A DNA stretch of 42,330 nucleotides from Myxococcota bacterium (GTDB lineage Bacteria > Myxococcota_C > UBA6777): assembly GCA_023150835.1 (NCBI GenBank), contig JAKLKB010000084.1, positions 1 through 42,330 of the forward strand. The letters are read 5' to 3'. This document shows positions 20,474 to 42,050 of the stretch, piece by piece (within the stretch, counting starts at the first letter, position 1; every line of letters begins with the position of its first letter). The notes under the pieces are model-generated. The model was given only the letters and a program-made list of their open reading frames with translations. It made no database searches and was not told the DNA's origin. Both the position numbers and the translations under genes were made by a program.

Positions 20474-20578
20474 CATCACCTCGTAACGACAAAATATGCC
20501 GAAGGAACGGAGCATACAACGCTCTCCAAAACAGGCTATTAGCGTATCGCGATACAAAGATCAAGCAAGCGGTTCAAC

Positions 20579-20655: not shown

Positions 20656-21648
20656 ATGACAGAAAGCCGAACCACACGCGATATCCAAGAACAAATCCGA
20701 GAAAAAAGTGAGTTCGTTCAGCGGCTCCGCCAAGCCATCGGCGAAGTGATCGTCGGTCAACAAGACCTCGTCGAACGCTTGCTTGTGGGTCTCCTTGCCA
20801 ACGGGCATGTCCTCGTCGAAGGTGTCCCCGGACTGGCCAAAACCACCGTTGTCAAGGCCCTTGCGGATGCTCTTGATGCCAGCTTTCAGCGGCTCCAGTT
20901 CACTCCCGATATGCTGCCTTCGGATATCCTTGGAACAGAGATCTACGAACAGCAAAAAGGTACTTTTTCGGTTAAAAAAGGACCGATCTTTGCGAACATC
21001 ATCCTCGCAGACGAGATCAACCGCGCTCCCTCCAAAGTCCAATCCGCCCTGCTCGAAGCCATGCAAGAGCGACAAGTGACGATCGGGCACGAAACCTTTG
21101 CTCTCCCCGCTCCATTTCTTGTGATGGCGACACAAAACCCCATCGAACAAGAAGGCACCTATCCCCTCCCTGAGGCCCAAGTCGACCGCTTTATGCTCAA
21201 GCTCAACGTCACCTACCCCTCCAAAGAGGACGAAAAAGCGATCATGCGGCGGATTGCACGCACCACCCCCAAAGCCACCGGATCCGTCGTACGCCCCGAA
21301 GAGATCCTTGCGGCCCGCGAGCTGCTCAAAGAGATCCGCCTCGAAGATCGTCTCGAAGATTACATCGTCGATCTGATCGTGGCGACCCGTTCGCCCCAAG
21401 AATACGGACTCAACCTTGGGCGTTATATCCAGTACGGCGCTTCGCCGCGTGGAACGATCTTTTTGCACCAAGCCGCCCGTGCGATGGCCTTTTTACGCGG
21501 TCGTGACTACGTCATCCCTCAAGATGTCAAATCGATCGCGCCCGATATCTTGCGCCACCGCCTCTTGCTTTCCTACGAAGCCGAAGCCGAAGACATTAAG
21601 GCTGACGATATCATCCGCGAACTTCTCGAACAGATCGAGGTTCCCTGA
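20656..21648 (+). CDS. MoxR-family AAA+ ATPase
   Basis: MoxR ATPases act as chaperone-like machines that work with vWA proteins encoded beside them. The 330-residue protein has Walker A GVPGLAKTT (56-64), Walker B IILADE (115-120) with the following INRAPSKVQSALLEAMQE helix, and sensor 1 ATQNP. The C-terminal part carries the arginine-bearing YGASPRG segment, all typical of the family. ATG 20656 follows AGGA by about 7 bases. Its TGA overlaps the ATG of the DUF58 gene (TGATG), implying translational coupling. It is the first gene of the long plus-strand operon. Confidence 0.94.
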   Translation: MTESRTTRDIQEQIREKSEFVQRLRQAIGEVIVGQQDLVERLLVGLLANGHVLVEGVPGLAKTTVVKALADALDASFQRLQFTPDMLPSDILGTEIYEQQKGTFSVKKGPIFANIILADEINRAPSKVQSALLEAMQERQVTIGHETFALPAPFLVMATQNPIEQEGTYPLPEAQVDRFMLKLNVTYPSKEDEKAIMRRIARTTPKATGSVVRPEEILAARELLKEIRLEDRLEDYIVDLIVATRSPQEYGLNLGRYIQYGASPRGTIFLHQAARAMAFLRGRDYVIPQDVKSIAPDILRHRLLLSYEAEAEDIKADDIIRELLEQIEVP

Positions 21649-22532
21649 TGCTTTCCGAAGAACTCAAACAACAGATCAAACAGATCCACATCTACACCTC
21701 TTACCTCGTCAATGAGGCGATGGCAGGCGAGTATGCGTCGGCTTTTAAAGGGCGTGGGATGGAGTTTGAAGAGGTGCGCGATTATCGCCCGGGCGATGAT
21801 ATCCGCACGATCGATTGGAAAGTGACGGCCCGAACAGGCGCTGCCTACGTCAAAGAACACCGCGAAGAACGCGAACTCACGATCTTTTTGATGGTCGATA
21901 TGTCAGCGTCAGGTCGGTTTGGTTCGGGAAACAAGCTCAAGACCGAAGTGATGGCGGAGTTGGCGGCTGTGATGGCCTATCTTGCGAGCCGAAACAACGA
22001 CCGTGTCGGCATGATGCTGTTCACCACAGAAGTCGAACGCTTTGTTCCCCCCAAAAAAGGCCGCGCCCATATCTGGCGGCTGATCCAAGAGATCCTCACC
22101 TTTCAACCCAAACACCAAGGCACAGATCTAGGCGGCGCACTCGAATATGCAGGACACCTTCTGCGCAAAAAAACGGTGCTGTTCCTCATATCCGACTTTC
22201 TCGACACACGCTACGAACACGCCCTCTCTCTTGCAAGCAAGCGCCACGATATCACCGCGTTGCACGTCAGCGATCCCCGAGAGAGCGAACTGCCCAACAT
22301 CGGGCTACTTGAACTCGAAGACGCAGAAACAGGAGAAGTGATGCTTGTGGATACTGCGGATGCTCGGGTTCGTGCGTATTTTCGGGATCAAGCCAACACA
22401 CAACGCCAACACACCCAAGCGATCTTACGGCGGTTGGGCGTCGACGAAGTCCCTATCGAGACCACGCAATCTTTTGTCTTGCCGTTGATGCGGTACTTAC
22501 GACAACGCGAGCGTCGACGTGCGCGCAGTTAG
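21648..22532 (+). CDS. DUF58 domain protein (vWA-like partner of MoxR)
   Basis: The 294-residue protein has the DUF58 signature EEVRDYRPGDDIRTIDWK (about 41-58). A vWA-like fold follows, beginning VDMSAS (83-88), with later ISDFLD and ALHVSDP strands. The MIDAS-like serine motif is D-M-S-A-S, close to the canonical D-x-S-x-S. No membrane segment is seen, so it is probably cytoplasmic. DUF58 proteins almost always follow moxR; here the start codon overlaps the moxR stop. It ends 62 bases before the next gene. Confidence 0.92.
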   Translation: MLSEELKQQIKQIHIYTSYLVNEAMAGEYASAFKGRGMEFEEVRDYRPGDDIRTIDWKVTARTGAAYVKEHREERELTIFLMVDMSASGRFGSGNKLKTEVMAELAAVMAYLASRNNDRVGMMLFTTEVERFVPPKKGRAHIWRLIQEILTFQPKHQGTDLGGALEYAGHLLRKKTVLFLISDFLDTRYEHALSLASKRHDITALHVSDPRESELPNIGLLELEDAETGEVMLVDTADARVRAYFRDQANTQRQHTQAILRRLGVDEVPIETTQSFVLPLMRYLRQRERRRARS

Positions 22533-22594
22533 TCAGATCGCGCAGATCTTCATTCGGTAGGCGTAACGCAGTTGCAAACGGAGCGAGAATCGCG

Positions 22595-23779
22595 ATGTGG
22601 ATCACCCTGTTTTATTTGCTTTTTGTCTCGCTTTTGGGCGTCTCGTTTGGCGCGATCTTCGCGTGGTGGGCGGGTGGACTTTTTGCGTCTGTGGCGCTGC
22701 TCTTGGCGCTTCCGCTCGAACGGGCCTTGCGGATCTCTTTGCGCATCGGAAGGCTGCCCATCGCTGCGCTGATCCCGATGGTTTGGCTTGGCCTTGTGAT
22801 CGGAACGGGCCTCTACGAAGCCCAAGAGGCCCAAGTGACGGCCCGCCAACGCACAGAAGTTCCCTTGCGCGCCCCCCTCGAAGCCTCGGCTTGGGTCGAT
22901 CGCACCACGCTTCGCGTGGAAAAAGACACCTTGCGTTACACCGTCTCAATACGCCACGCCAAAACACTCAAACCGCGCCTGCCCAAGATCACCGAACATC
23001 CGACCTTTCACGGCCCTTTTTTGATGCCCGCCGAACATCCACCAAAGAGCACACAAACTCCTGAATCTGACGGCACGATCACGCACCGTTGGATCGTTAC
23101 GCTGATGGCTGTTGCAACAGGACCGCTCGATACACCCCGATTCACCGTCCATTACAACCACAACGGCAAACCCCATGAAGTGATCATCCCCTCGATCGCC
23201 ATCGAAGTCACCGAGCTTGAAAAGCCCAACGTTCTGCTCGCGGGTTTACGCCCAGCCAAGCCCCCGACTCTCCCCGAAAAGCCCGACACCCAAGTCTCTT
23301 GGACATGGCTGGGCGGAACGGGCGGTGGATTGCTTGCGCTGTTGCTTTTGGGCCTGTGGTTTCGCCAACGCAGCCTTCGCCCTGAACCGCCCCGCCCACC
23401 GCACGAATGGTTTGCTCAGGCTTTTCAATCCCTCCAAACCCAACAACTTCTCGAACAAGGAAAAGAAAAAGCCTATTACTTCGCACTTTCCGAGCTTTTT
23501 CGTGGATACATCGAGCGCCGTTTCGACTTTCCCGCCCTCGAAAGCACCACCGAAGAGATCGTCTTGTGGGGCAAGGCCAACGATGCCCTTTCCCAAGAAA
23601 CCTACAAAGATATCCGACGCCTTTTGCAATGGATGGATCAGATCAAGTTTGCAGGTGCCACCGCTTCGCCCGAAGAACGCGAAGACATGGATCACCGTAT
23701 GCACAGCGTCATCCGCCGAACTCTCCCAAGCCCCGAAACTACGGCTCCTTCCACCACTCCCTCTCGTGCGGATGCTTAA
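22595..23779 (+). CDS. Membrane protein with BatD-like features
   Basis: The 394-residue protein starts with two or three membrane helices (about 3-70). A periplasmic beta-rich region follows (about 85-215, with EASAWVDRTTLRVEKDTL and an RFTVHYNHNGK segment). Then come another membrane helix (about 232-250, LLALLLLGLWF) and a cytoplasmic helical tail containing YYFALSELFRGYIERRFDFPA. The last segment strongly recalls the C-terminal tails of BatD and related DUF4381-type proteins found in MoxR operons. I could not assign it to a named family with confidence. GGAG lies 11 bases before the ATG. It is separated by 18 bases from the BatA-like gene, so it belongs to the operon. Confidence 0.75.
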   Translation: MWITLFYLLFVSLLGVSFGAIFAWWAGGLFASVALLLALPLERALRISLRIGRLPIAALIPMVWLGLVIGTGLYEAQEAQVTARQRTEVPLRAPLEASAWVDRTTLRVEKDTLRYTVSIRHAKTLKPRLPKITEHPTFHGPFLMPAEHPPKSTQTPESDGTITHRWIVTLMAVATGPLDTPRFTVHYNHNGKPHEVIIPSIAIEVTELEKPNVLLAGLRPAKPPTLPEKPDTQVSWTWLGGTGGGLLALLLLGLWFRQRSLRPEPPRPPHEWFAQAFQSLQTQQLLEQGKEKAYYFALSELFRGYIERRFDFPALESTTEEIVLWGKANDALSQETYKDIRRLLQWMDQIKFAGATASPEEREDMDHRMHSVIRRTLPSPETTAPSTTPSRADA

Positions 23780-23797
23780 CGCGGAGATTTTGTTTTG

Positions 23798-25057
23798 ATG
23801 AACGGCTTTCGATTTGCTTACCCTTGGATCTTTGCACTTCTCCCGATCTGGCTGATGCTGTTGTGGTGGATACATCGCCAACATCGCAAACGTGTAAGCC
23901 TACGCTTTTCTTCTCTGCACGCCCTCCAAGGCGCCCCCGTCGGGCTACGCGCTCGACTGGCTCGCATCCTCCCCACAACGTTGCGTGGAATGGCCCTTCT
24001 ACTCGGCTTGATCGCGTTGGCCCGTCCCCAAAGCGTGGTGCGCAAACAATGGTTTGAATCCACAGGTGTCGATATCGTTCTATCGCTCGATACTTCGGGC
24101 AGTATGAAGATCATCGATATGGATACACGCGGCGGACTCGTCCAAGATCTTCACCGACAACTCACCAACCAAGGTGTCCTCGACTTTGGTACGGCACGCG
24201 CCGATGCGATGGATCGCCTTGATGTGGTCAAAACGGTCGCCCAAGAATTCATCCGAAAACGCAAAGGTGATCGCCTCTCCCTTGTGATCTTTGGAACCGA
24301 AGCCCGCACTCTTTGTCCCCTTACACACGATCTCAGCGCAGCCTCCAGCCTTTTAACGGATATCCAGATCGGCATCGTTGGCGAGATGACCGACCTCCAA
24401 AAAGGCATCGAGTTTGGACTCAAGCGCCTCGTCGGTCTGACGGTTGAAGATGTCCTAGAGATGGCCAAAACCCGCTCAAAAGACTACATCCTCGAACAGA
24501 TCCGCACCCGCAAAGCCTCCTTCCTTTTTGATGCCAAAACCGAAGCCCTACTCCAACAAGCCAAGCTCGACAAAACCGTCCTTGATGCGATGCGCGCCCG
24601 CAAACCCCGCTCTCAGATCCTTATCCTACTCACCGACGGAAAGCACACCGCCAAAGAAGGCTCCGAAGGCCGCGAAGATGTCTTGCGCGCCGCCCGCGAA
24701 GCCGCCCTCTACAAGGTCAAGATCTACACCATCGGTATCGGTAGCAAACAAGCCTACACCTTCTTGCGCATCAAACGCAGCGGACGCGACAACGTCGTCC
24801 GCTTTCCGAGCGACTCCTACGACGAGGACTTGATGCAAGAGATCGCCAAGCTCACAGGCGGACGCTTCTTTGCCGCGCAAGATCGCAACGCACTCCAACA
24901 GGTGTACAACGATATCAACAAGCTCGAACCCAACCGCTTTAAGGTCCATCAATGGGACGAAACCCAAGAACGCTATCTGTGGTTTCTTCTGCCCTTGCTC
25001 GGCCTGCTCGCTCTCGAACTCCTGCTCGGCGCAACGCTGCTGCGACGTATCCCTTAA
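23798..25057 (+). CDS. BatA-type vWA membrane protein with an extra helical module
   Basis: The 419-residue protein has the BatA layout: two N-terminal membrane helices (about 8-24, 60-75), a vWA domain and a C-terminal membrane helix (about 395-414, LWFLLPLLGLLALELLLG). The MIDAS residues are present: DTSGS (98-102), the threonine in GEMTDLQKG and TDGKH (279-283). Two insertions depart from the family. One is a stretch after DTSGSM (about 103-140). The other is a module of about 55 residues (about 212-268, GLTVEDVLEMAKTRSKDYI ... FLFDAKTEALLQQAKLDKTV) inside the vWA fold. The ATG at 23798 is preferred over an in-frame TTG one codon earlier; GGAG is 11 bases upstream. Confidence 0.88.
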   Translation: MNGFRFAYPWIFALLPIWLMLLWWIHRQHRKRVSLRFSSLHALQGAPVGLRARLARILPTTLRGMALLLGLIALARPQSVVRKQWFESTGVDIVLSLDTSGSMKIIDMDTRGGLVQDLHRQLTNQGVLDFGTARADAMDRLDVVKTVAQEFIRKRKGDRLSLVIFGTEARTLCPLTHDLSAASSLLTDIQIGIVGEMTDLQKGIEFGLKRLVGLTVEDVLEMAKTRSKDYILEQIRTRKASFLFDAKTEALLQQAKLDKTVLDAMRARKPRSQILILLTDGKHTAKEGSEGREDVLRAAREAALYKVKIYTIGIGSKQAYTFLRIKRSGRDNVVRFPSDSYDEDLMQEIAKLTGGRFFAAQDRNALQQVYNDINKLEPNRFKVHQWDETQERYLWFLLPLLGLLALELLLGATLLRRIP

Positions 25058-25075
25058 AGCGGAAAGGATGCCCTG

Positions 25076-26257
25076 ATGACGCAACACAAACTCCATCACA
25101 CACCCACAAAACCTCCGACATCGCCCGTCCTTGCGCCCTCTGCAACGTGGGTGATGATCGGTGTTTTGTTTGCCTTGCTTTGTCCGCTCAGTTTGCTGCT
25201 CGACTTCCATACACAGGTCGCCCGTTTTCTGTTGCCAGAGATCCATCTTGCCCGCGCTTGGGTGCTTGCGCTGCTTTGGTTGCTCCCTGCCATCGGCCTG
25301 TTTTTGCAGCAAGCCCGCCGCGCACGTATGCAGCGCCTCTCTCAAATGGCGAGTCCGCTCACTCTCCAAAGTCTGCTTCGCCATTACAGCCCCGGGCGCA
25401 TCCGCTTGAAGGGATGGCTACTTGCGATGGGTTCGGCCTTCTTCCTCATCGCATGGGCAGGCCCACAATGGGGAACCCGCGTCCGACTGATCCAACGCAA
25501 AGGGATCGATGTCGTCGTTGCCATCGACGTTTCCGAAAGTATGCTTGCTCGCGATATCCCCTCTGCCACAGGACAGCGCAAACAGCGCCGTCTCGATCTC
25601 GCCCGTCGCAAGGTCCGCTACCTGATGGATGCCCTCGCGGGCGAACGCATCGGCATCGTCGCCTTTTCTGGAAAACCCGTCACACTTTGCCCGCTCACCA
25701 GCGATTACAACACCTGCGCACTTTGGCTCGACGACTTTGACCCCAGCCTGATCCCCTACAGCGGAACCGCCCTCGCAAGCAGCCTCCAGCACGCCATCCC
25801 CATGTTTGCCACCAGCGGCATGAATTCCCGCGCCCTCTTCTTGATCACCGACGGCGATGATCACGAAAAAAATACCCTACAAGCCGCCAAAGAAGCCAAA
25901 AAGCAAGGCATCCGCATCTACGCCCTTGGCATCGGCTCCACCGAAGAAGTGACACTCGACCCCCGCGACCTTCCCCCACCTCCCGCAGGTCAAGCCCCCG
26001 ATCCGCGCCCGATCGTCACCCGACTCAACGAAAAACTCTTGCAGCAGATCGCCCAAGAAACCACCGGCCTATACCGGCACGCCGAGGCCAGCCAACGCGA
26101 TATCCGCCAACTGTTCGAACACGCCACCCAAACCCTCGAAGCCCGCACACAAAAAAGCCGCCGCCAAGTCTTTCGCGAAGAACGTTTCCCTCTTTTTCTC
26201 GGCTTGGGACTGCTTTTGCTCCTCGTCGACATCAGTCTGCGCGAACGGAGAAGTTAA
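25076..26257 (+). CDS. BatB-type vWA membrane protein
   Basis: The 393-residue protein has membrane helices near 25-45, 62-82 and 118-135. A canonical vWA domain follows with MIDAS residues DVSES (151-155), SGTALASS and TDGDD (258-262), and a final helix (about 370-388, LFLGLGLLLLLVD). The segment ERIGIVAFSGKP is the usual strand 2 region of BatA/BatB. A Pro-rich insertion DPRDLPPPPAGQAPDPRP interrupts the distal half, as often seen in BatB. The N-terminus is longer than usual (about 24 residues before the first helix). AAAGGA lies 7 bases before the ATG. It is 18 bases after the BatA-like gene and 2 bases before the giant TPR lipoprotein. Confidence 0.9.
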   Translation: MTQHKLHHTPTKPPTSPVLAPSATWVMIGVLFALLCPLSLLLDFHTQVARFLLPEIHLARAWVLALLWLLPAIGLFLQQARRARMQRLSQMASPLTLQSLLRHYSPGRIRLKGWLLAMGSAFFLIAWAGPQWGTRVRLIQRKGIDVVVAIDVSESMLARDIPSATGQRKQRRLDLARRKVRYLMDALAGERIGIVAFSGKPVTLCPLTSDYNTCALWLDDFDPSLIPYSGTALASSLQHAIPMFATSGMNSRALFLITDGDDHEKNTLQAAKEAKKQGIRIYALGIGSTEEVTLDPRDLPPPPAGQAPDPRPIVTRLNEKLLQQIAQETTGLYRHAEASQRDIRQLFEHATQTLEARTQKSRRQVFREERFPLFLGLGLLLLLVDISLRERRS

Positions 26258-26259
26258 CC

Positions 26260-29200
26260 ATGCCTTCGATCCAACCCCGCCCCATCGCTCTTTTGACGCG
26301 CACTCTCCGCCTATTTCGCTCTGCACCTCTTTTGACGCGCACTCTCCGCCTGTGCGAAACCACCCTACCGCCCCAACCACCGAACAAACAACGACTTTTC
26401 ACGTACACGCTCCGCCTGTGTGGGTTGCTTTCGGCGTTGTTCTTTCTTCCTGCTTGTGAGCAGTTTCCTTGGACCCAACAAAATCAACAAAACGAGCGTT
26501 TCTTGCGCCATCAAGAAGGGCTTCAATCTTACAAAGAAGGCCGATTTATCGAGGCACAACGCCTCTTTCTCGATCTTCAAAGCAAACAACCCGAAAGCCG
26601 CTTGCTGATGTTCAACCTTGGTGCGGTGTACTTGCAGATCGCCAAGCAAGAGAAAAAAGCCGAAGCACGCCAGCCTTTGCTCGAAAAATCCGAAAAAATG
26701 CTCAAGGCGGCCCTCGATAAAAGCAGCGCAGATATCCGTCAAAAAGCACACTACAACCTCGGCCTGCTCTACACAGAAAAGAAACAATACGAAGAAGCCC
26801 TCTTCCATTTTTCAAGCGCCAACCAACTCGCACGCAAGATCCTCAAACAACCCGATGCAGACGCCGAAAAAAATCAAGAGATCCTATCGATGTTGCTCCG
26901 GCAGCGCAAACGCGAACAACAAAAACTCAGCAGCAGCCGCGTCTTCCGCTATGAAGAAAAAGTCTTCACCTTGCGCGCCAAGCAACCCACCACCGATCCA
27001 CATCTCCACATCGCACTCCAAGGCGTATTCGTCCACGAAACCACCCAAACACGCGTGATCCTTTCGGGCTATCCGACTTCTGAACAACAATGGCAACTGC
27101 GCTTTGTTCCCGTCCATTCGGGCAAATGGCGCTACACCATCCAAACCATCCAACAAAAACGTCCCGATGGTTCGACCACACGCCTCGACACCTCGCTCCA
27201 CGATCAAGGTCTCTTTCAAGTCTTGCCTTCTGCTCGACCCGGCCAACTGATCGTCGCCACCGACAACCCCGCACGTTTCGCATGGAAAAAGCCCGAAGAA
27301 GCCAAAGATCTCACCAAAAAGAAAAAAACCGCCCCCTCCACCAACAACCCCAACCCCTCGGCCTCTCCAAACAGCCCCAAACCACCAACACCGAACAAAG
27401 ACGCCGCTTCGGGCAAAGAGGCGGACAAAAAACAGCCGCAGATCGCCAAAGATGAGCGCATCCTTGTCTGGCGTGGCCTTGCGGTGGAAAACTTGTTCTC
27501 TCCGACACTTCAAGACAAAGACTTTGACGCACACCTGCGACTCTTTGAAGCCCTTCAACTCAACGGCATCTTACTTTCCATCGATATCGACAACCTTTTT
27601 GTCGTCTCCCAAGGACAAGTACGCCCCGAGCAAGCCGCTTGGCAACGTTTGCAAAAGCGCCTTACCGAGATGCAAAAAAATCCCATCCACACATGGGCTT
27701 TTGTCTTCAATCTCCGCACACGTCACGCCCATTCCTCCGCGATCTGGAGCGCGATCTTGTCGCACACCCACGCTCGCCTCGCCCACACCCACGCCATCTG
27801 GTCCTTGCGCGATCTGCCGCCCTCCCTCCAAACGCAAACCCACGCATGGCTCGTCACCCACGATCCCTACGCCCAGCCCATCGCATGGCCGCGCTTTCCC
27901 AAAGAACTCCTCTCCAAACTGATCGCGCTCCATACTCCCAAAGCCCCCACCACTCGGACTTCTCCACAACCCAACCGCACCACCTCCCCCCTCACCCAAC
28001 CTTCCCCACAGCCCAACAGCACCAAAGATCCGAAATCACCGACCCAACCACGCCTTCGCGATGTCCTCCACACCCACGAACAAGGCGAGATGGCGATGAT
28101 GATGCGCCCACAAGTGATGACGCCTTGGCTCGCCGAACTCCCCATCCACGAAAAACTCGATCCCAAGGCATTTTTGCAGACGTGGTGGCGCCGTTATCTC
28201 ACAGGCATCCACATCACCCTGCGCTTTCCTCGCCCCCTTCACAAAAACGAGATCGACACCCTCCACACGTGGCTCCAAAAAGCCGCCACCCAAGAAGAAC
28301 TCCCCCCTCATCCCGATGCCTCCACAGCATCCGCCACTTCCAAGCCTACGGCCCAAGCCTCCACAGCATCCGCCACTTCCAAGCCTACGGCCCAAGCCTC
28401 CACAGCATCCGCCACTTCCAAGCCTACGGCTCAAGCCTCTACAGCATCCGCCGCTTCCAAGCCTACGGCTCAAGCCTCTACAGCATCCGCCACTTCCAAG
28501 CCCGTCTCTCAGCCTGTTTTCGCCAAAGGCGATCTCTCAAGGCCCTTCCTCCATGCACACCTCTTGCGGATGCGATGGGAGCGATTTCTTGCCACCATCG
28601 ACCTCCACGAGTATCTGCGCCCCGACCCGATCTCGGTGCGTGTCCCCGATTATGCGGCTTTGGCGAAGCGCCCTCCCCAGCAGATCAACGCCTCATCGAT
28701 CCCTTGGCGCACCGTCCCGATGTACGGTTATGTCGCCACCAACGGACTGACCACGTTGTATATGCCCCCTCCCCAACGCACCGAAAAACCGCCCAAGATC
28801 CAATGGAAACAATACAAACTCGACCTCGACTTTGTTTGGTACAACGCCCAAACAGGAAAGTTTTTGGAGACCCAAAAACTTCGCCAAGTGACGGGGCTTG
28901 AGATCACCCACCCCAAAGAAGAAGCGCACATCGCCAAAGTGATGATCGCCGATCATCCCGCACACACCGCATACACCGTCCATCTTCCGCACAAACCGCT
29001 GCACCTCGAATCGCCCACCCCGCTGCATCTCCAAGCATGGGAGATCGTGATCACTCCACCCAAGCGACCGGCCTTTCGCGTTCCCTTCTTGCGGACTTCT
29101 CACGGTTGGGAAGCGCGCTTTCGCCCTGATCAACCCGGATTATGGACGTTTCAGATCCATCACCAAAACAAACCACCCCAAGGCGATCTCGGCCTGATCA

Positions 29201-30783
29201 GCCGCTTGAAAGTGATGCCCTCTCCCCTTCCTGCCGCGATCTCTCCGCACCCGAAAGCGCCGCGTTTTCTTGTCGCAGGAGAAGCACCCTTTTTCTTTTA
29301 CGCTCGCCGCGAAGATGCCCTGCTCACCCGCCCCGAAAGCCTCGCCGCCTTCAAGCAGCGCATCCAACAGATCCGTCAAAGCGATCCTGCCCTCACCGTC
29401 GTGATCACACAGCTTCCCTCGTTTGCTTGGTCGCCCGCCTCCACCGACCGCGCTCTCTCTCAAACCGCCCCCTCGCTCTCTCTCAAACCGCGCCATCGAC
29501 CGACCTCTGCGCCGACTTCGACGCCCCCATCGCCCATTCTGGCCTCTTCTCCCGAACTCTTGCGCCAACTCGATCAGATCGAAGCCAAGATCGAGATCTT
29601 GCACAAAGCGGGTCTTCACGTCGCCTTGCAGATCGATCGCCGCAGATGGAGCGCGTGGAACCCACTCGAACGCATCCAACGTGCGATCTACTTGATCGAT
29701 CGCCTGCATCCGATCGCGCCGCTGTTGTGGGTCGCTGATCTTTCTGGCAAAGACGACACGCAAAAACATCGGTGGTTTCCGCAGATGCTTCAAACATGGA
29801 CCATGCTTCGCTTGATCGATCCGCAAGCACTCCAAGCCTACCAAAAAGATCCGAAAAAAGCCCAACCCCCTCCGCTCTTGGCTGCGCCGCCTCTTTCTCT
29901 TGCCTATCTCGGAAAGCCCCAGTCTACCGCTCGCTTAGAACAAGCAGAAAAATCCTTTGCGATGCTGTGGCTAGAAACCCAAGCCTTGGAACGCGAGATC
30001 AGAGACTTCAAACTACTTGAGCGCAAACGCCCGATCGTTCTCTCTTGGGCCGATCTACCGAAAAAAGCAGACGACCTCTCACCTGCCGATCCCAAATCTC
30101 CCAATCCACCGAAGATATCTCTACGATGGGCCGCCTTTCTCTGGCGCTCCCATCTGCTCGGCTTTCACCACACAGGCCCGTCTCTACCCACCCGATGGCC
30201 CGAAAGCACCCCTGCACCCGCCTCTCCAGAACAAGTCCCCCTCGCCCAACGCATCCCGTTGCTCATGCGGGGCTTTTTCCAATCTTTTGATTGGACGCAG
30301 CTTCAACCCGCGATGCACAGCCTACGTCTGCGCGAACATCAAGCCTTTGGCGCAGAAACCCCCGCCCCACGACAAGCCCAACAACCCCACCATGCGGTCG
30401 TTTGGGTGCGTGACAGCGTGCGCGGCAAACTTGAGTTCGAACGCCTCAAGGATCTCTCCAAACACCGCTACACTTGGCTCGATCCGATACGTGGACAACA
30501 GCCCATCCAACCGCAACTTCTACCGCCCGCTCCAAAACGCGGTCAACCCGAGACATTTCAACTTCCCTTTCGCCCTGCTGTCTTGTACCTCTTTCGTCGC
30601 CCGCCCCAAAAAGGCGATAAAAAACAACAGCCTCAACCCCAACCCAGCCCAAAACAAGATCGCGTCTCACAACGCCAGCAGATCCGCAATCGTCTCAAAC
30701 GCCTCCAAGAAGATCGCCGCGATCTCTTGCGTAAGATGCTCCAAAAACAAAAACCAACCTCGCTTTCCGACAAACGCGGTTAG
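26260..30783 (+). CDS. Giant TPR lipoprotein in the BatC position, with two DUF5060-like segments
   Basis: The 1507-residue protein has an N-region with repeated TRTLRL-type units (about 7-50), then a hydrophobic run ending FLPAC (lipobox). TPR-type helices follow (about 75-215, including KAHYNLGLLYTEKKQYEEALFHF), matching BatC. From about 227 comes a beta-sandwich with QLRFVPVHSGKWRYTIQT, resembling DUF5060, then a region near 395-570 (LVWRGLAVENLF) recalling the pseudo-glycosidase part of such proteins. A linker carries five 13-residue repeats (687-751). A second similar set lies near 925-1100 (WEARFRPDQPGLWTFQI). The C-terminus is basic and helical. Function is inferred only: a lipid-anchored periplasmic or outer-membrane component. 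GGAG lies 9 bases before the ATG. The start is certain only if the long N-region is real. Confidence 0.7.
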   Translation: MPSIQPRPIALLTRTLRLFRSAPLLTRTLRLCETTLPPQPPNKQRLFTYTLRLCGLLSALFFLPACEQFPWTQQNQQNERFLRHQEGLQSYKEGRFIEAQRLFLDLQSKQPESRLLMFNLGAVYLQIAKQEKKAEARQPLLEKSEKMLKAALDKSSADIRQKAHYNLGLLYTEKKQYEEALFHFSSANQLARKILKQPDADAEKNQEILSMLLRQRKREQQKLSSSRVFRYEEKVFTLRAKQPTTDPHLHIALQGVFVHETTQTRVILSGYPTSEQQWQLRFVPVHSGKWRYTIQTIQQKRPDGSTTRLDTSLHDQGLFQVLPSARPGQLIVATDNPARFAWKKPEEAKDLTKKKKTAPSTNNPNPSASPNSPKPPTPNKDAASGKEADKKQPQIAKDERILVWRGLAVENLFSPTLQDKDFDAHLRLFEALQLNGILLSIDIDNLFVVSQGQVRPEQAAWQRLQKRLTEMQKNPIHTWAFVFNLRTRHAHSSAIWSAILSHTHARLAHTHAIWSLRDLPPSLQTQTHAWLVTHDPYAQPIAWPRFPKELLSKLIALHTPKAPTTRTSPQPNRTTSPLTQPSPQPNSTKDPKSPTQPRLRDVLHTHEQGEMAMMMRPQVMTPWLAELPIHEKLDPKAFLQTWWRRYLTGIHITLRFPRPLHKNEIDTLHTWLQKAATQEELPPHPDASTASATSKPTAQASTASATSKPTAQASTASATSKPTAQASTASAASKPTAQASTASATSKPVSQPVFAKGDLSRPFLHAHLLRMRWERFLATIDLHEYLRPDPISVRVPDYAALAKRPPQQINASSIPWRTVPMYGYVATNGLTTLYMPPPQRTEKPPKIQWKQYKLDLDFVWYNAQTGKFLETQKLRQVTGLEITHPKEEAHIAKVMIADHPAHTAYTVHLPHKPLHLESPTPLHLQAWEIVITPPKRPAFRVPFLRTSHGWEARFRPDQPGLWTFQIHHQNKPPQGDLGLISRLKVMPSPLPAAISPHPKAPRFLVAGEAPFFFYARREDALLTRPESLAAFKQRIQQIRQSDPALTVVITQLPSFAWSPASTDRALSQTAPSLSLKPRHRPTSAPTSTPPSPILASSPELLRQLDQIEAKIEILHKAGLHVALQIDRRRWSAWNPLERIQRAIYLIDRLHPIAPLLWVADLSGKDDTQKHRWFPQMLQTWTMLRLIDPQALQAYQKDPKKAQPPPLLAAPPLSLAYLGKPQSTARLEQAEKSFAMLWLETQALEREIRDFKLLERKRPIVLSWADLPKKADDLSPADPKSPNPPKISLRWAAFLWRSHLLGFHHTGPSLPTRWPESTPAPASPEQVPLAQRIPLLMRGFFQSFDWTQLQPAMHSLRLREHQAFGAETPAPRQAQQPHHAVVWVRDSVRGKLEFERLKDLSKHRYTWLDPIRGQQPIQPQLLPPAPKRGQPETFQLPFRPAVLYLFRRPPQKGDKKQQPQPQPSPKQDRVSQRQQIRNRLKRLQEDRRDLLRKMLQKQKPTSLSDKRG
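26288..26351 (+). repeat. 25-bp direct repeat, period 39, in the lipoprotein N-region
   Basis: CTCTTTTGACGCGCACTCTC (extending five more bases to CGCCT) occurs at 26288-26312 and again, identical, at 26327-26351. A third degenerate relative (ACGTACACGCTCCGCCTGTGTG) lies near 26401. The repeats encode successive LLTRTLRL-type units ahead of the hydrophobic signal segment. The unit preserves the reading frame. Confidence 0.85.
28318..28512 (+). repeat. Five tandem 39-bp repeats (13-residue units)
   Basis: Five in-frame units encode ASTASATSKPTAQ (three times), ASTASAASKPTAQ and ASTASATSKPVSQ. The first three DNA units are nearly identical, indicating recent expansion. They form a Ser/Thr/Ala/Pro-rich flexible linker between the two halves of the giant lipoprotein. 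Copy number is probably variable among strains. Confidence 0.95.
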
Positions 30784-30828
30784 CCTTCCCATCCAAACGA
30801 AACGCGGTTCGCCTTCCCACCCAAACGA
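30773..30828 (+). repeat. 28-bp tandem duplication at an operon junction
   Basis: The sequence at 30773-30800 is repeated at 30801-30828 with 26 of 28 bases identical. The first copy contains the TAG stop (30781-30783) of the giant lipoprotein; in the second copy the same place reads TTC. The second copy runs straight into the ribosome site (AAGGA) of the BatD-like gene, so the duplication lengthens the junction from about 29 to 57 bases. Confidence 0.9.
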
Positions 30829-30840
30829 AAGGATCACGCG

Positions 30841-33800
30841 ATGTCGCCGCACCAAGCCCCTCTTCGGATCGCCTCTTCTGCGCGTTGCGGCCTGTTTTTG
30901 CTCGCTCTCTGGGCCTTGACGCTGTGTTCTCCCGATGCCCACGCACAAACCGACCGAATCCTGCTACTCTCGCAGAGCCAACATTACCAACCGGGCGAAC
31001 GCATCGCAGTTTATGCTTTCTTTTTTCGGATGCCTGAGCAGTTTTCCTTCTTTCGTGTATGGGAACGCGCCTTACAAAGCAACCAAGACTTCACGCTACG
31101 AAAAACCGAACGCCTCTCGATCGTTCAAGAATACGGACGGGACCCCAACGGCTTCCCCAGCGAGTCTTACAACGTCCTGTACCGCCTTGAGATCGAACCC
31201 AAGCGCCACCAAGGAACCCTTCAATACGGCCCCTTGCGCCTCCAATCTCTCATCAGCAACACTCTGCGCTTCACCCCTCAAAGCGCCACGCCGCGCTCTT
31301 CGATCCAAAGCGAAGCCAGTATCCTCACCCCCACCCGCCAACAAGGAACCCCCCTCCAGATCCGCTATCGCTTCCGTTGCCCCCTTGCGCTGTGCAACTA
31401 CGATCAACTCGACCAAAATGACCTACTCCAACACCTTCGCCAAAAAGCCCGACTCTCCGACATCGAAGGCTTATGGCCCGCCCAAACCAACGTCACCCCC
31501 GAAGTCCTTACGGCCACCTCACACCTTACCCTCCAATACACCTTCACTTTTTACCCCACCCGCAGCGGCTCCCTCCAAGCCCCACGCCTGCGCGTCCCGA
31601 TCCCCACCCTCCAAGCCCTCGACGTTCGGCCCATCCAACACCGCATCACCCAATGGCTCCAATCCACGCACAACATCCCCGCCCCAAACGCCCAACGCTA
31701 CATCCAGATCGAGCGCAACAACCCCAACCGCATCCAACTCCAAACCGAGATCACCCCGCCTCTCTCCTTGGAGATCGCCCCCGTCCTCGGCTGCCCCGGC
31801 CAATGGAAGCTCCACAGCCGTCTCGTCACCCCCGAAAAAAGCAACGCCGTCTATTGGGAGATATCCCTTCGCGGCGATGGCTTCCTTCTACTCGCGCTCC
31901 CTGCGCTGCGCCGCGCCCTTCAAGACACCCTCACCCAACACAAACTCTCCCAAACTCTCGAACTCGCCCACGCCATCTGGCGCGCCCCCCAACAAGATCT
32001 CCACCAACAAATCGAGATCGCTTACTACTTTGCCCTCCCCGCCCAACGCCCTGCACTTCCCGCGATATCCATGTCTTTCCTCAACGCCCAAAACCAACCC
32101 TACACCCAACAAACCCCTGCCATCGACCGCAACGCCCGCGTCACGCCACTCAACGAAACCTTTGCTCCCGCCCCCAACGAACGGCGCATCTATCTTTATT
32201 ACGATCGCGCCCCAACCACCGAACAATCCGAACAAGCAGAGATCTGGGCCTACCAACTTCCCGAAGGCTTTCCACTCCCCACACTTATGTCGCAACGCTG
32301 GTCACTCAAACAGCCCCCACAGATCAAACACGAAAGAAAAGTACGCAACATCACCCGCCGCCATCAAACACGCGGAATGTTCGGCATGATGACACAAGTC
32401 GTCACCCAAGGCGTCCCCATCGATGTCCACACCGCACAAACCGAAGCCATGTTGCGCTCTGATCCTCTAGCGCGTGTTTTTCCCACCGTCTATTGGGGTT
32501 CGCAGCGACTTTCCATCCAAGAAGAAACGGGCAGCGGCCTCACCCTTTCCGCTCAGACTTCCCAAAAACGCTACTTTGTCGGCGAAGATATCGAATACAA
32601 GGCTGATCTGCAATGTCCACCCAACGAATGCACCCCCAAAACACCCGGCTTTTACAAACAAATCTTTCAAAAACATCTCAAGATCCCAAGCTTTGACCGT
32701 TTCAGCGGTTGGCAAAAATTAGACGACTTCACTCGCCGCGATCTGCCCGATGGACGGGCGATCTTTACCTATCGCGTCCGTTTCAAAACCAACCAAAGCG
32801 GCCCACTCTCTCTGCCCTCCGCCTCTCTTCGCCTCCCCGAACAAGTCTTACAATCCCTCCAAGCCGAACACCAAGTCTGTTTCTTTCGTGGAGGACGCGC
32901 CGAAGAACGCCTTGCAAGCGCGATCATGCGCGATCACATGAACCTCAAAGGCGAACAAGAATGTGCCACAGGCACCCAAGAGATCGAAACCACCCCCCTC
33001 CAGATCTCCATCGAAACGCTCCCCGCCGAAGCCCGTGATATCAAACTGGTCGGGATCTTCCGCCTCCAAGCCACCCTCTCTCAACTCAACTTCCCCACCA
33101 AACAAGCCACCGTCACCGACAAACCCTTTTATCTCCTGATCGATATCTCTGGCGATGGCGACCTCAAAACCGCCCAACAGATGATCCAAGATCAACTGGC
33201 TCAGATCACCCGCGACTTGCGAAAAAAAGACGTCACCGCTTACACCGAGATCCCTCCAGACGAGCAAAAACCCGATCGCTTGCGCGTCCAACTCCAACTG
33301 ATCGCCGAACAACCCACCACCCTCCTCCTGCCCTCTCTCTCCCTTCGCTACTACCACCGCGAAGAAGGCGTACTCACCGCCCAAACCCTCCCCCTGTCCG
33401 TTCGCATCGAACCCCGCGATGGTATCGGCGGCGTCGTGACACCTCGCAAAGCCGAGCCATCCCCCACCCCCAAAGAAACCACCTCACTGCTCCAAGAGAC
33501 CGATCTGCGGCCCAATATCGTCCTCTCTCAACAACAAGCCCTTGTCGATCAGTCCTTTTCCCCTTGGGACGGGATGTATCTTTCGCTGCTTGCTGCTTGT
33601 CCCTTGTTGCTGCTGCTGTTTGCGGGGTGGCAACGTCAACTACGCTTGCGCGCAGCCGATCCCACAAAACAGATCCAACAAAAAGCCCTCCAACACGCAC
33701 GCCAAGCCCTCAAACAAGCCCAACAACAGGATGCTTGGGAACGCGCCACCCTGCTCGCTCTCCAAACCTATCTCACAGAACGCCTCAGCCTCCGCCAAAA

Positions 33801-34005
33801 ACACCCCACCAGCGACGAGATCAAGCAGATCCTCACACGCCGATGGCCCGAATACACCCGCCACGATTGCGCCACACATCTCCTCTCCCACCTCCAAACG
33901 CTCGAAGATGCCCTCTACGGCGGAAGCCAGCCCCTCGACGCCAAAACGCGACAACCTTCGATCGAACAAGCCATCAAGGACTTTGACCGCCAATGCCCCC
34001 GATAA
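30841..34005 (+). CDS. Large BatD-like protein
   Basis: BatD proteins are periplasmic beta-rich, membrane-anchored partners of BatA/BatB. This 1054-residue protein has a signal peptide cleaved near DAHAQ (about residue 36). Several beta-sandwich units follow, including YTFTFYPTRSGSLQAPRLRV near 240, FTYRVRFKTNQSGPLSLPSA near 650 and a TLLLPSLSLRYYHREEG unit near 830. These are variants of the BatD repeat motif F-x-[F/I]-x-P-x-x-x-G-x-[L/Y]-x-[L/I]-P. One membrane helix (about 908-930) and a cytoplasmic helical tail with ALLALQTYLTERLS end the protein. It is longer than most BatD proteins (usually about 550-650 by my recollection), through an N-terminal expansion. The ribosome site AGGA lies 7 bases upstream of the ATG. 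Confidence 0.85.
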   Translation: MSPHQAPLRIASSARCGLFLLALWALTLCSPDAHAQTDRILLLSQSQHYQPGERIAVYAFFFRMPEQFSFFRVWERALQSNQDFTLRKTERLSIVQEYGRDPNGFPSESYNVLYRLEIEPKRHQGTLQYGPLRLQSLISNTLRFTPQSATPRSSIQSEASILTPTRQQGTPLQIRYRFRCPLALCNYDQLDQNDLLQHLRQKARLSDIEGLWPAQTNVTPEVLTATSHLTLQYTFTFYPTRSGSLQAPRLRVPIPTLQALDVRPIQHRITQWLQSTHNIPAPNAQRYIQIERNNPNRIQLQTEITPPLSLEIAPVLGCPGQWKLHSRLVTPEKSNAVYWEISLRGDGFLLLALPALRRALQDTLTQHKLSQTLELAHAIWRAPQQDLHQQIEIAYYFALPAQRPALPAISMSFLNAQNQPYTQQTPAIDRNARVTPLNETFAPAPNERRIYLYYDRAPTTEQSEQAEIWAYQLPEGFPLPTLMSQRWSLKQPPQIKHERKVRNITRRHQTRGMFGMMTQVVTQGVPIDVHTAQTEAMLRSDPLARVFPTVYWGSQRLSIQEETGSGLTLSAQTSQKRYFVGEDIEYKADLQCPPNECTPKTPGFYKQIFQKHLKIPSFDRFSGWQKLDDFTRRDLPDGRAIFTYRVRFKTNQSGPLSLPSASLRLPEQVLQSLQAEHQVCFFRGGRAEERLASAIMRDHMNLKGEQECATGTQEIETTPLQISIETLPAEARDIKLVGIFRLQATLSQLNFPTKQATVTDKPFYLLIDISGDGDLKTAQQMIQDQLAQITRDLRKKDVTAYTEIPPDEQKPDRLRVQLQLIAEQPTTLLLPSLSLRYYHREEGVLTAQTLPLSVRIEPRDGIGGVVTPRKAEPSPTPKETTSLLQETDLRPNIVLSQQQALVDQSFSPWDGMYLSLLAACPLLLLLFAGWQRQLRLRAADPTKQIQQKALQHARQALKQAQQQDAWERATLLALQTYLTERLSLRQKHPTSDEIKQILTRRWPEYTRHDCATHLLSHLQTLEDALYGGSQPLDAKTRQPSIEQAIKDFDRQCPR

Positions 34006-34040
34006 TCCGCCCCCACCATCTTTACCCCAAGAGGTCTATC

Positions 34041-34856
34041 ATGCGCCGTACCTCTGCCCTTGGCTTGCTCTCGTGGTTTGCTTTCTTTGTTTGCGCTGCT
34101 TTTTCTTCGGAGGCTTCTTCAAAACCCCGTCCAGCCGATGTCTCTGCATCTGCCGTCTTCATGCAAGCCAACCAGCACTATCACGCCCAACATTACGCAA
34201 AAGCCGTCGAGATCCTCGAAAACTTGCGCACCAAGCGCCATCTCAACCACTTTGCGATCCACTACAACCTCGGCAATGCCTACTTCCGCCTCCGTCGCTA
34301 CGGACACGCGCTCGCCTCCTATCGCCGCGCTCAGCGCCTCCACCCCAACCACGAAGATCTCTTACACAATCTCCAACTCCTCTACCAGCGCACAGGACAA
34401 GCAGACCCCGACAACAATCTCCGCCAACGTGCGCTGTTTTGGTATCGCCTCTTGACGCTGCGCCAGATCTTTTGGCTGACCTTGGCTTGTCTTGCCCTTG
34501 CTTGCTTGCTTTGGGGCGTCTTCTTGCACCGAAACGCCCAAGGGCACAAAGGTATGCGCTGGTGGGCGGCATCCTTCACCTTGATCGCCCTGTTGCTTGG
34601 TGGAAGTCTGACCGCCAAGTTTTACAACGAACAACTCGTCACAACAGGCGTGATCATCGCCCCCAAGATCACCGCACGTTCGGGGTACGGCGAAAACTTC
34701 GAGGCACTGTTCACGCTCCAAGAAGCCGAAGAAGTGACGGTCCGAGAACGCACCGCTGGATGGTTTCGGATCGAAGTCTGGCAAGAAGACACCAAACAAA
34801 AACGCCGATACCTTCGATCAGGTTGGCTGCCCGAACAAACCCTTACCACTCTCTAA
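34041..34856 (+). CDS. BatE-type TPR and SH3-like membrane protein
   Basis: The 271-residue protein has a signal peptide (about 1-25), TPR helices (about 38-115, including FAIHYNLGNAYFRLRRYGHALASYRRAQRL in two motif halves), two membrane helices (about 150-170 and 180-200) and a C-terminal SH3-like domain (about 205-271, with SGYGENFEALFTLQEAEEV and RSGWLP). This is the typical BatE architecture. I chose ATG 34041 because GAGG lies 6 bases upstream and a signal peptide begins there; an upstream in-frame ATG at 33993 would overlap the BatD-like gene and lacks a site. It is followed by repeat A copy 5. Confidence 0.88.
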   Translation: MRRTSALGLLSWFAFFVCAAFSSEASSKPRPADVSASAVFMQANQHYHAQHYAKAVEILENLRTKRHLNHFAIHYNLGNAYFRLRRYGHALASYRRAQRLHPNHEDLLHNLQLLYQRTGQADPDNNLRQRALFWYRLLTLRQIFWLTLACLALACLLWGVFLHRNAQGHKGMRWWAASFTLIALLLGGSLTAKFYNEQLVTTGVIIAPKITARSGYGENFEALFTLQEAEEVTVRERTAGWFRIEVWQEDTKQKRRYLRSGWLPEQTLTTL

Positions 34857-34872
34857 TTCGCAGATGTTCGGC

Positions 34873-34991
34873 TTATACGAGATCCGAGTGATGTATACAC
34901 AAAGGCATCGTACACAGATGCCCTGTAATAGGGCAGCCACAGGGGGCTGCCCCTACGTTTTACGACCAAACCACGGGCGGATTTCGTATCA
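34873..34991 (-). repeat. Palindromic repeat A, copy 5, inside the operon
   Basis: The left end is TTATACGAGATCCGAG and the right end GGGCGGATTTCGTATCA, with an intact central GGGCAGCC/GGCTGCCCC hairpin. It lies 16 bases after the BatE-type stop and ends 27 bases before the chosen start of the thioredoxin gene. It is in the minus orientation. If the operon continues through it, the transcript carries a strong stem here; otherwise it may separate the last gene from the rest. Confidence 0.85.
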
Positions 34992-35018
34992 TCCCCACTC
35001 AAAGCGATGGAATCCACG

Positions 35019-36140
35019 ATGCGTACAATTTTTTTCTTCAGAACAAGTCGGCTCTTACTCGCTTGGTTCGGCCTTTTGGGGGCCTTGTGCTCGCCATCCG
35101 TCCATGCAGGTCTGCCCCATCCGTATTTTTCGCGCTTCCCCAAAGCCGAAAAAGAACTCGAAGCGCTACTCCAACGCGCTCAGATCCAGCCGCTCGAACC
35201 CCAACCTGCCGATCTGTCGCTCAAGCTCCTTGATGCCCGAGAGTCGAGGCTTTACAACGTCGCTCGCCACCGCGGCCAACTGATCGTCCTGTCCCGATGG
35301 GCCACATGGTGTTCGGCTTGCAAAGCAGAACTCCCTTCCAAACTGGCGATGCACAAACAACTCCAAGACACACGCCTCGCACTGATCGGGGTTTCCGAAG
35401 AAGATCGTGAGACCGTCCGTACATACGAACAAAAAGCCGCAGAGCGCTATCCGATCAGCTTGCTTGATTCCTCGGGCATCGTGCAAAAATTTTTCCCAAG
35501 CAGCGGACTCCCCACCACGATCTTGATCGATGCGTGGGGATGGGTGGTGGGGATGCGTGTCGGCGGCCTTGCATGGGACTCCACAGACACCCTCGCCCTG
35601 ATGCGTTATCTGTTGTCGATGCGCCCCGCACAGCCTTTGCGTGATCAAGCCCCCGCCCCCCAAGCCGAATTTACCCGCCGATGGCGCGTTCGCATCGGCC
35701 AAACCTTCGCTGTACCCGTCACCCTTCGCTGGAACGGAGAAGCCGACAAATACGCCCGTATCGCCTTCCGCCTCCCACAAGATCCCGCCTTCTCCAACGA
35801 AGGTCTCGAAACATCGGGCATCACCTCCAACGACCAAGGCAACCAACGCACCTACACGCTCAAACTCAAACTCTTGCGCACAGGGCGCTTTGAACTCAAA
35901 CCCCTCTTGCTCAACTACTGGCTCAAAGATTACGACCAGCACTTCCAAGCCGACCTCGGCAGCCTCACCGCCCAAGCCAGCGCACTCGCCCCACTCCACA
36001 CTGTCCCACCTTGGACCCTCTGGACCAGTTTGGCCGCTGTTCTCGCTTTCTTGCTCTTCCTTGGCTTCGCCATCCAACGCAGCAGTCAACGCGATCAAAA
36101 TGACCACAACGCCACCCCTCCCCCACGAAAAAAGGCATAA
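35019..36140 (+). CDS. TlpA-type thioredoxin fused to a membrane-anchored beta domain
   Basis: The 373-residue protein has a signal peptide (to about residue 30, VHAG) and a thioredoxin-fold domain (about 40-200). The redox motif WCSAC (97-101) is followed by LIGVSEEDRETV and the cis-Pro segment GLPTTILIDAWG. Such TlpA/ResA-like proteins reduce periplasmic disulfides. A second domain (about 208-315) with an LKLLRTGRFELKPLLLNYWL strand pair recalls BatD-type beta sandwiches. A membrane helix (about 325-350) and a short cytoplasmic tail end the protein. ATG 35019 is preferred (TGGA 7 bases upstream); ATG 35007 is possible. Its TAA is the start of repeat A copy 6. It probably belongs functionally to the Bat cluster. 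Confidence 0.82.
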   Translation: MRTIFFFRTSRLLLAWFGLLGALCSPSVHAGLPHPYFSRFPKAEKELEALLQRAQIQPLEPQPADLSLKLLDARESRLYNVARHRGQLIVLSRWATWCSACKAELPSKLAMHKQLQDTRLALIGVSEEDRETVRTYEQKAAERYPISLLDSSGIVQKFFPSSGLPTTILIDAWGWVVGMRVGGLAWDSTDTLALMRYLLSMRPAQPLRDQAPAPQAEFTRRWRVRIGQTFAVPVTLRWNGEADKYARIAFRLPQDPAFSNEGLETSGITSNDQGNQRTYTLKLKLLRTGRFELKPLLLNYWLKDYDQHFQADLGSLTAQASALAPLHTVPPWTLWTSLAAVLAFLLFLGFAIQRSSQRDQNDHNATPPPRKKA

Positions 36141-36243
36141 TACGAGATCCGCCCATAGTGCTACCGTAACGGTGTAGGGGCAGCCCAAGAATCGGGCGTC
36201 TACGCAATATCTTACGATCACACATCGCTCGGATATCGTATAA
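36138..36243 (+). repeat. Palindromic repeat A, copy 6 (first of a tandem pair)
   Basis: It begins TAATACGAGATCCGCCC, the TAA being the stop codon of the thioredoxin-fusion gene, and ends CGGATATCGTA merging into TAATACGA of copy 7. The central hairpin has lost one arm (GGGGCAGCCCAAGAATCGGGCGTC), so it is shorter than copy 7. It is in the plus orientation. Confidence 0.88.
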
Positions 36244-36359
36244 TACGAGATCCGCCCGTTGCGTGATCGTGACGAGGTAGGGGCTGCCCCCCGTGGCTGC
36301 CCGATGGCAGGGCGTCTACGCACGATCCTTCGATCACACATCTTGCGGATATCGTATAA
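36241..36359 (+). repeat. Palindromic repeat A, copy 7 (second of a tandem pair)
   Basis: The ends are TAATACGAGATCCGCCC and TGCGGATATCGTATAA, sharing about three bases with copy 6 in a head-to-tail tandem. The central GGGGCTGCC.../GGCTGCCC hairpin is intact. Bases 36360-36497, between this copy and the universal stress gene, show no recognised feature apart from that gene's ribosome site. Confidence 0.88.
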
Positions 36360-36962: not shown

Positions 36963-37078
36963 TACGATATCCGAGTGATCTATGATCGAAGGATAGCGCG
37001 AGGACGCCCTATCCTTGGGCAGCCACAGGGGGCTGCCCCTACGTTTTACGATCACGCTCCCTGCGGATTTCGTGTAAG
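36960..37078 (-). repeat. Palindromic repeat A, copy 8
   Basis: It begins TAATACGATATCCGAG, whose TAA is the stop of the universal stress protein, and ends CTGCGGATTTCGTGTAA. The central GGGCAGCC/GGCTGCCCC hairpin is intact. It is in the minus orientation. The following 100 bases up to 37178 separate it from the convergent giant lipoprotein and show nothing recognised. Confidence 0.9.
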
Positions 37079-41909: not shown

Positions 41910-42050
41910 GAAACCACGCTCCACACAGCGACAAAACCCAACAAATGCCGACGGCACGACCCTTCCTTGGACATGACGAACGCACAAAACTTGATTGTCT
42001 TTCCCCCACAAGGGTTTGTAAATAGGACAAAACCAAGCGACACGCAAAAC

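Follow-up and report, generated by a model that had tools for sequence, protein, structure and literature searches.

Bat operons are widespread and important for stress survival, and no ligand or client has been agreed for them. Their first link, made in Bacteroides, was with aerotolerance and reducing power (PMC3557215), and an oxidative or heat stress phenotype is known from Riemerella (PMC11834572). We analysed a Bat locus in a 7.56 Mb draft genome from the phylum Myxococcota_C (assembly GCA_023150835.1, lineage UBA6777). The stretch under study, which we call the window, is an entire contig of 42,330 nucleotides (JAKLKB010000084.1), and positions are those of the window. The locus contains all eight gene types of the Bat operon, in the order MoxR-DUF58-(BatD/DUF4381-like)-BatA-BatB-BatC-BatD-BatE. 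As in other Bat operons, BatA has an N-terminal pair of transmembrane helices, a vWA domain with a metal ion-dependent adhesion site (MIDAS) and a C-terminal transmembrane helix, and a TPR protein is encoded between BatB and BatD. In contrast to those operons, BatC has 1507 amino acids (instead of about 190-280), BatD has 1054 amino acids with seven invariant cysteines (instead of about 610 with about none), BatA carries two insertions, and a TlpA fusion has been added. BatC is fused to two apiosidase-like modules, and the operon is elaborated on its periplasmic face. Our leading working model, which we hold tentatively and whose mechanism we infer, is a Bat machine with a non-cutting glycan or wall anchor and a redox-gated BatD.

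Nine + strand open reading frames span 20656-36140 and encode MoxR, DUF58, a membrane protein that we call G3, BatA, BatB, the lipoprotein, BatD, BatE and the TlpA fusion. These are the nine co-directional genes of the original prediction, which was made from the letters of the window, and the list of reading frames bears them out. Support from Pfam and NCBIfam is strong for MoxR, DUF58, both vWA proteins, the TPRs and the thioredoxin domain. MoxR is followed directly by DUF58; there are two vWA membrane proteins with a MIDAS (matches to PF07584 and VWA, with the motif residues seen in the BatA alignment); the protein between BatB and BatD has TPR matches in all five homologues; and BatD has DUF11-like beta-domains, a transmembrane helix and a helical tail.

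For comparison, we sampled 290 genomes for BatD loci; almost all of them belong to other families of the domain. A BatD match was found in 151 of these genomes, and we read 34 neighbourhoods. In 25 of the 34 loci, MoxR, DUF58, G3, BatA and BatB could each be identified from their resemblance to the window proteins, and the TPR protein, BatD and BatE usually come after these five. Judged from their sequences, eight of the nine genes, G3 among them, are the ordinary full Bat layout, and it is virtually certain that the core of the locus is an ordinary Bat operon. Because other lineages have this gene set, gene content alone makes no new system, and the locus is not one by gene content; the suggestion of an undescribed system was an overreach. 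The unusual features are inside the proteins, and they are held in all five genomes of the phylum. The claim that canonical Bat loci are much smaller stands for protein sizes and not for gene number: the space between BatB and BatD has a median of 770 nt (30 loci measured) versus 4583 nt here. Two other genomes also have large gaps there, which are taken up by a TPR gene together with either unrelated metabolic genes or a protein of the Bax1-I family.

G3 (22595-23779, +) has a BatD/DUF4381-type beta-domain, a transmembrane helix and a helical tail. It has no Pfam match itself. Most Bat loci from other lineages have a matching gene at this place, between DUF58 and BatA (best E 6e-21), and the relatives of G3 weakly match DUF4381 and BatD. 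The Bat locus of B. fragilis likewise has two BatD-like genes (PMC5700661). The second BatD-like protein that had been counted as an expansion is indeed BatD-like, but we rejected the expansion, as G3 is a normal member of the operon.

In our collection, the phylum comprises five genomes from one family and three genera. The four relatives (KLAP109, S139, NP119 and M3003) are metagenome-assembled genomes whose taxon label is Myxococcota or Deltaproteobacteria. Each of the four keeps the nine genes in this order, as far as the contigs reach (the contig of one, G002, starts within G3), so that the predicted gene order is present throughout the phylum. The original prediction would have failed if the giant lipoprotein and thioredoxin genes were not kept next to Bat genes in relatives; they lie beside them in all five genomes. 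The ratio of nonsynonymous to synonymous substitution rates (dN/dS) is 0.04-0.15 in each of the nine genes.

A giant lipoprotein in the BatC position

The lipoprotein gene (26260-30783, +) encodes 1507 amino acids, as predicted, with a lipobox cysteine (C66, codon 26455-26457), a TPR region, two tandem pseudo-glycosidase modules and a basic tail. C66 is invariant in the five genomes, follows a hydrophobic stretch, and has E or Q at position +2. Asp is absent from +2, which is the sole indication of an outer-membrane location and relies on the E. coli sorting rule. The TPR region (residues 67-225; 26458-26934) matches TPR families in all five genomes, and its score for TPR_BatC_Lepto (NF047507) is below the cut-off (29.5 versus 175 bits). 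Repeated 25-bp units lie in the signal-peptide region (26288-26417), and the protein is about 35 N-terminal residues longer than that of KLAP109.

Module 1 (26935-28527) consists of a DUF5060 immunoglobulin-like (Ig) domain, a TIM-barrel-like region, the start of a C-domain and low-complexity linkers; the C-domain continues into 28528-29214. Pfam identifies DUF5060 at residues 230-295 in all five homologues (E 5e-13 to 5e-16), and each genome of the phylum has a single copy of this domain, always in the lipoprotein gene. A linker of module 1 that is rich in Ser, Thr, Ala and Pro is encoded by a 39-bp tandem repeat (28318-28502; 4.7 copies at 97% by Tandem Repeats Finder, TRF), and its length varies between sister species. 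The interval 28528-30609 holds the end of that C-domain and then module 2, with a DUF5060-like Ig domain, a TIM barrel of GH-A type and a C-terminal beta-sandwich. The basic C-terminal tail (30610-30780) ends in GKRG or DKRG in the alignment of homologues.

We compared a profile of residues 227-1452 with one of 26 DUF5060 glycosidase-type proteins from other genomes, using HHalign. There were two tandem matches, each of them nearly full length (template positions 4-523 and 5-507 of 524), with scores of 126 and 104 and probabilities of 98.3-98.6% for module 1 and 97.5-97.7% for module 2. Controls scored 16.5 (reversed enzyme profile), 13.7-32.6 (ten column shuffles) and 18.2 (BatD profile). The two modules also match one another (HHalign, 92%). 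They are almost certainly a tandem of the DUF5060/TIM-barrel/C-domain unit of apiosidase (GH140-like) type. Searching 386 genomes with the two-module profile gave matches that were more than fragmentary in the five phylum members only.

Structural comparisons of module 2 were used only as support for this assignment. The AlphaFold model (from five sequences) is poor, with a predicted local distance difference test (pLDDT) of 48; its best Foldseek matches are glycoside hydrolases (E 8e-10). In a second comparison (VIA), the top match was the GH140 enzyme BT_1012 (Z 12.2, 273 aligned residues, root-mean-square deviation 12.3 over several domains), and GH5 enzymes and another GH140 were within 1 of the top Z. 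On the predicted model, the match is by fold and not by function. The lipoprotein thus has, twice over, the Ig, TIM barrel and beta-sandwich architecture of BT_1012 and of DUF5060 glycosidases such as 4n0r. Unlike those enzymes, its modules are fused to a TPR lipoprotein, are not recognised by the Pfam model of the catalytic domain (PF13204; E limit of 1, all five lipoproteins), and lack both catalytic carboxylates.

In the DUF5060 glycosidases, a Glu lies five residues past the beta-4 Trp in 22 of 25 sequences, and another lies at beta-7 in 24 of 26. Both the acid/base at the end of beta-4 and the nucleophile at beta-7 are absent from both modules in all five genomes. In module 1, the acid/base site reads L, L, L, W and M across the genomes, and there is no conserved acid at the nucleophile site. 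In module 2, the acid/base site is S in four genomes and R in the fifth, and the nucleophile Glu is replaced by an invariant Trp (W1263). The Arg that precedes beta-4 and the Trp of beta-4, which are framework residues, are retained. As far as the alignments can tell, the modules are very probably dead by the usual mechanism, and we rejected an active glycosidase because the catalytic residues are missing from both of them. Might they be active with relocated residues, so that the lipoprotein remodels envelope glycan? Unusual catalytic residues do occur in some glycoside hydrolase families; DUF4038 varies at one catalytic position (Asp in 82%, Glu in 17%; PMC4032388), and an invariant Asp1160 lies near one site. 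Given that both canonical positions are non-acidic in each module across five genomes, with an invariant Trp at the module 2 nucleophile site, we consider such activity quite improbable.

The modules have nevertheless been maintained. Between the window genome and KLAP109, dN/dS for the lipoprotein gene is 0.13 overall; it falls to 0.025 in the last domain and peaks in the low-complexity linkers. These low ratios point to maintained domains and not to decay. The lipoprotein is also strongly basic, with net charges of +76 to +254. Klotho, a membrane-anchored protein, has tandem non-catalytic domains derived from GH1. The likeness is in how it works only (two non-catalytic glycosidase-derived domains in tandem, anchored to a membrane): the glycoside hydrolase family, the domain of life and the partners all differ, and we claim no descent. 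If the modules no longer bind sugar, they could be a Klotho-like scaffold for protein binding, holding the TPR/Bat body at a distance from some other envelope protein. This would suit domains that have lost catalytic residues and stay under selection, as well as the tandem arrangement and the Klotho chains among the fold matches of module 2. But the basic charge and the glycosidase ancestry favour a kept ability to bind polyanions or glycans, and no partner is known, so this scaffold is on the unlikely side. We lean slightly towards glycan holding rather than a pure protein scaffold.

BatD, BatA and the thioredoxin fusion

BatD (30841-34005, +) is enlarged to 1054 amino acids, with a signal or transmembrane segment, a long periplasmic part, a BatD-type last beta-domain, a transmembrane helix (residues 911-929) and a helical tail. 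Residues 751-1050 are of BatD type (iterated profile, E 1e-31 to 4e-44). Pfam recognises BatD weakly in the window copy (genome-scale E 2.5e-5), relatives match better, at 2e-6 and 1e-10, and PF13584 was found in three of the five members. Seven cysteines (180, 185, 318, 592, 597, 680 and 708), including two CPxxxC pairs, are invariant in all five genomes. In contrast, ordinary BatDs (n = 34) have a median length of 613 amino acids and a median of 0 cysteines in residues 36-449. The longest of the 34 (834-966 amino acids) seem to be BatD-BatE fusions, with matches to BatE as well. Since the mature lipoprotein and G3 have almost no cysteines, no periplasmic part of the locus other than BatD is, on these predicted sequences, cysteine-rich. 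An internal duplication of BatD was considered, and at 22% it was too weak to claim.

BatA (23795-25057, +; PF07584 and PF00092) shows the DxSxS, T and D residues of the MIDAS. Its vWA domain has insertions of about 27 and about 54 amino acids that are kept in the five genomes and are absent from eight ordinary BatAs. The original prediction did not include these insertions, the DUF5060/glycosidase-like modules or the invariant BatD cysteines.

The last gene (35007-36140, +) encodes a thioredoxin of the TlpA/ResA type (WCSAC; C102/C105), followed by a BatD-type beta-domain and a C-terminal transmembrane helix. The active site is WC[SG]AC in the homologues, and C102/C105 and the cis-proline (P169) are invariant. 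The M3003 homologue was modelled by AlphaFold with a pLDDT of 77, and its best Foldseek match is TlpA (E 2.5e-11). An iterated profile built from G3 and its relatives recovers the C-terminal half (E 1e-13 to 3e-21), which implies a BatD-type arm; direct HHalign comparisons with BatD or G3 gave no match (scores 18-29), because the alignments are shallow. From this profile, the fusion is predicted to carry a BatD-type beta-domain and a membrane helix, so that both halves of the fusion proposed originally are upheld. Like TlpA and ResA, the protein has a thioredoxin fold, WCxxC, a cis-proline and a membrane-tethered periplasmic domain. It differs in its active site (WC[SG]AC), in the added beta-domain and transmembrane helix and, in two genera, in a helical cytosolic tail (present in NP119 and M3003), and it does not reach the NCBIfam equivalog cut-off (NF047696; 50.4 versus 230 bits).

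What might the thioredoxin act on? The fusion lies beside the locus in all five genomes and adjoins the operon in four, and CcdA/DsbD-type electron donors (membrane reductases) are encoded in all five. We see the proposal that BatD is the redox client of the fusion as evenly balanced. In the competing account, the operon is a normal Bat operon, the fusion serves another client (for instance, CuA or cytochrome c maturation), and disulfides between cysteines of BatD are purely structural. Such clients are usual for TlpA-type proteins, and the best PDB match is TlpA bound to ScoI or CoxB; moreover, the gene is detached from the operon in G002, and no relative of the thioredoxin domain of the fusion was found in the 34 sampled Bat loci. 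We nonetheless consider this account unlikely, given the BatD/G3-type beta-domain and transmembrane helix of the fusion, its place beside the locus in every genome, and the fact that BatD is the sole cysteine-rich protein there.

The genes from MoxR through BatD are tightly spaced (a 1-bp overlap or gaps of 2-62 bp), and BatD overlaps the longest BatE reading frame by 13 bp. BatE and the thioredoxin gene are 150 bp apart, and this gap holds an inserted copy of a dispersed intergenic repeat (121 bp, 34872-34992) with a terminator-like hairpin (34931-34952). A single nine-gene transcript is therefore not established, although the strand and order of the predicted nine-gene operon stand. The repeat belongs to a family of about 120 bp that is partly palindromic, ends like ATACGA(A/T)ATCCG and has 62 matches in the genome. 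Copies in the window are at 6718-6835, 13104-13507, 19957-20083, 34872-34992, 36135-36359, 36961-37073 and 42048-42238. At the equivalent site in the sister species KLAP109, no copy lies between BatE and the TlpA gene, which implies that the repeat is or was mobile.

Other genes of the locus and its surroundings

MoxR (20656-21648, +) is an AAA+ ATPase of 330 amino acids (PF07726, E 4e-67; PF17863). It is 71-99% identical and syntenic in three relatives, and lies past the contig end in the fourth. The DUF58 protein (21648-22532, +; 294 amino acids) adjoins MoxR and is vWA-like (PF01882, E 1e-80); no transmembrane helix was found in a scan for them. No viral relatives of it were found either, so we rejected a viral origin. 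BatB (25076-26257, +) is a vWA membrane protein (PF13519, NF047506) that is 56-97% identical in relatives. BatE (33993-34856, +, possibly starting at 34041) has TPRs (TPR_2, E 5e-9), a transmembrane helix and a putative SH3-like domain with a sub-threshold match (SH3_3, E 0.005).

A secondary match of MoxR to bpMoxR (68 bits) raises the idea of a ternary-type MoxR-vWA system for conflict or defence. The match to ordinary AAA_3 MoxR is much stronger (224 bits), PADLOC matches are only trivial, and the locus has the Bat layout and is kept across the phylum. We rejected the defence reading and regard it as extremely improbable; this is a Bat locus.

A second locus with vWA genes like BatA and BatB is present in every genome of the phylum (L173, L174, L175, L176 and L177), and a DUF4381/BatD-like gene is nearby in four of the five. 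No giant BatC-type protein was recognised there, where several reading frames are unassigned to families. In some other lineages, MoxR is directly preceded by an additional BatD/DUF4381-like gene (L094, 4581-5504; L111, 14851-15810; L117, 10832-11920), and two of these three match the C-terminal half of the TlpA fusion. Upstream of MoxR in the window is a small reading frame (20111-20557, -) that is 84% identical in M3003, versus 71% for MoxR. Presumably it resembles QueF. Also in the window are another vWA protein near the Bat locus (a VIT-vWA protein of 769 amino acids; 10796-13105, +) and a protein of 1622 amino acids with MopE-type metal-binding repeats and then sortilin/YCF48-like beta-propeller repeats (37179-42047, -).

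A working model and its implications

In our working model, MoxR and DUF58 would act in the cytosol. G3, BatD and the TlpA fusion would span the inner membrane, and their helical tails, where present, may receive force or a signal from MoxR/DUF58. In NorQ-NorD, which is also a pair of a MoxR ATPase and a vWA protein, the ATPase twists a linker in its partner (PMC13036017). However, NorQ-NorD inserts metal into nitric oxide reductase, and the vWA domains of BatA and BatB are probably periplasmic, as is that of BB0173, a BatA homologue (PMC5700661). Given this location, the BatD-type arms with a helical tail would be the likeliest transmembrane link to MoxR/DUF58. The periplasmic body would consist of the beta-domains of the BatD-type proteins, the vWA domains of BatA and BatB, and the TPRs. 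The BatC-like lipoprotein would be lipid-anchored, probably in the outer membrane, with its TPRs docked on this body and its non-cutting basic modules gripping an envelope glycan (peptidoglycan, lipopolysaccharide or acidic exopolysaccharide), so that it may tie the inner-membrane motor to the wall or the outer membrane. The TlpA domain would hold the BatD cysteines in a working redox state and could be fed by the CcdA/DsbD-type reductases. If it acts on those cysteines, then assembly or activity would follow envelope redox conditions. In its full form (an AAA+-driven, redox-gated machine that grips glycan with a tandem pseudo-glycosidase BatC and has BatD disulfides set by the TlpA-BatD fusion), the model is possible but doubtful.

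Several points weigh against this model. The four named relatives are uncultured. With a pLDDT of 48 for module 2, the fold claim rests mainly on the profile comparison. Lysine-rich linkers inflate the net charge of the lipoprotein, which is not the only basic protein of the locus (the isoelectric point of BatD is 9-10). The TlpA fusion of the window lacks the cytosolic tail, the terminator-like repeat separates its gene from the operon, and in G002 that gene is 6 kb from the operon, past four genes on the opposite strand. Even so, the originally predicted envelope machine, tethered to an outer-membrane lipoprotein and with thiol chemistry attached, stays the best inference; its anatomy is now specific (dead modules and a seven-cysteine BatD), and it is not an undescribed system.

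The glycosidase-derived modules on BatC point to an envelope glycan as the contact of the periplasmic end of the Bat machine, and the thioredoxin and the cysteine-rich BatD point to thiol-disulfide exchange as its control. The redox link can be set to the test against the old reducing-power idea from Bacteroides. If the model is true, a Bat system would for the first time have a defined ligand-binding end together with a defined thiol circuit, and one could test directly what Bat targets, a question of long standing.

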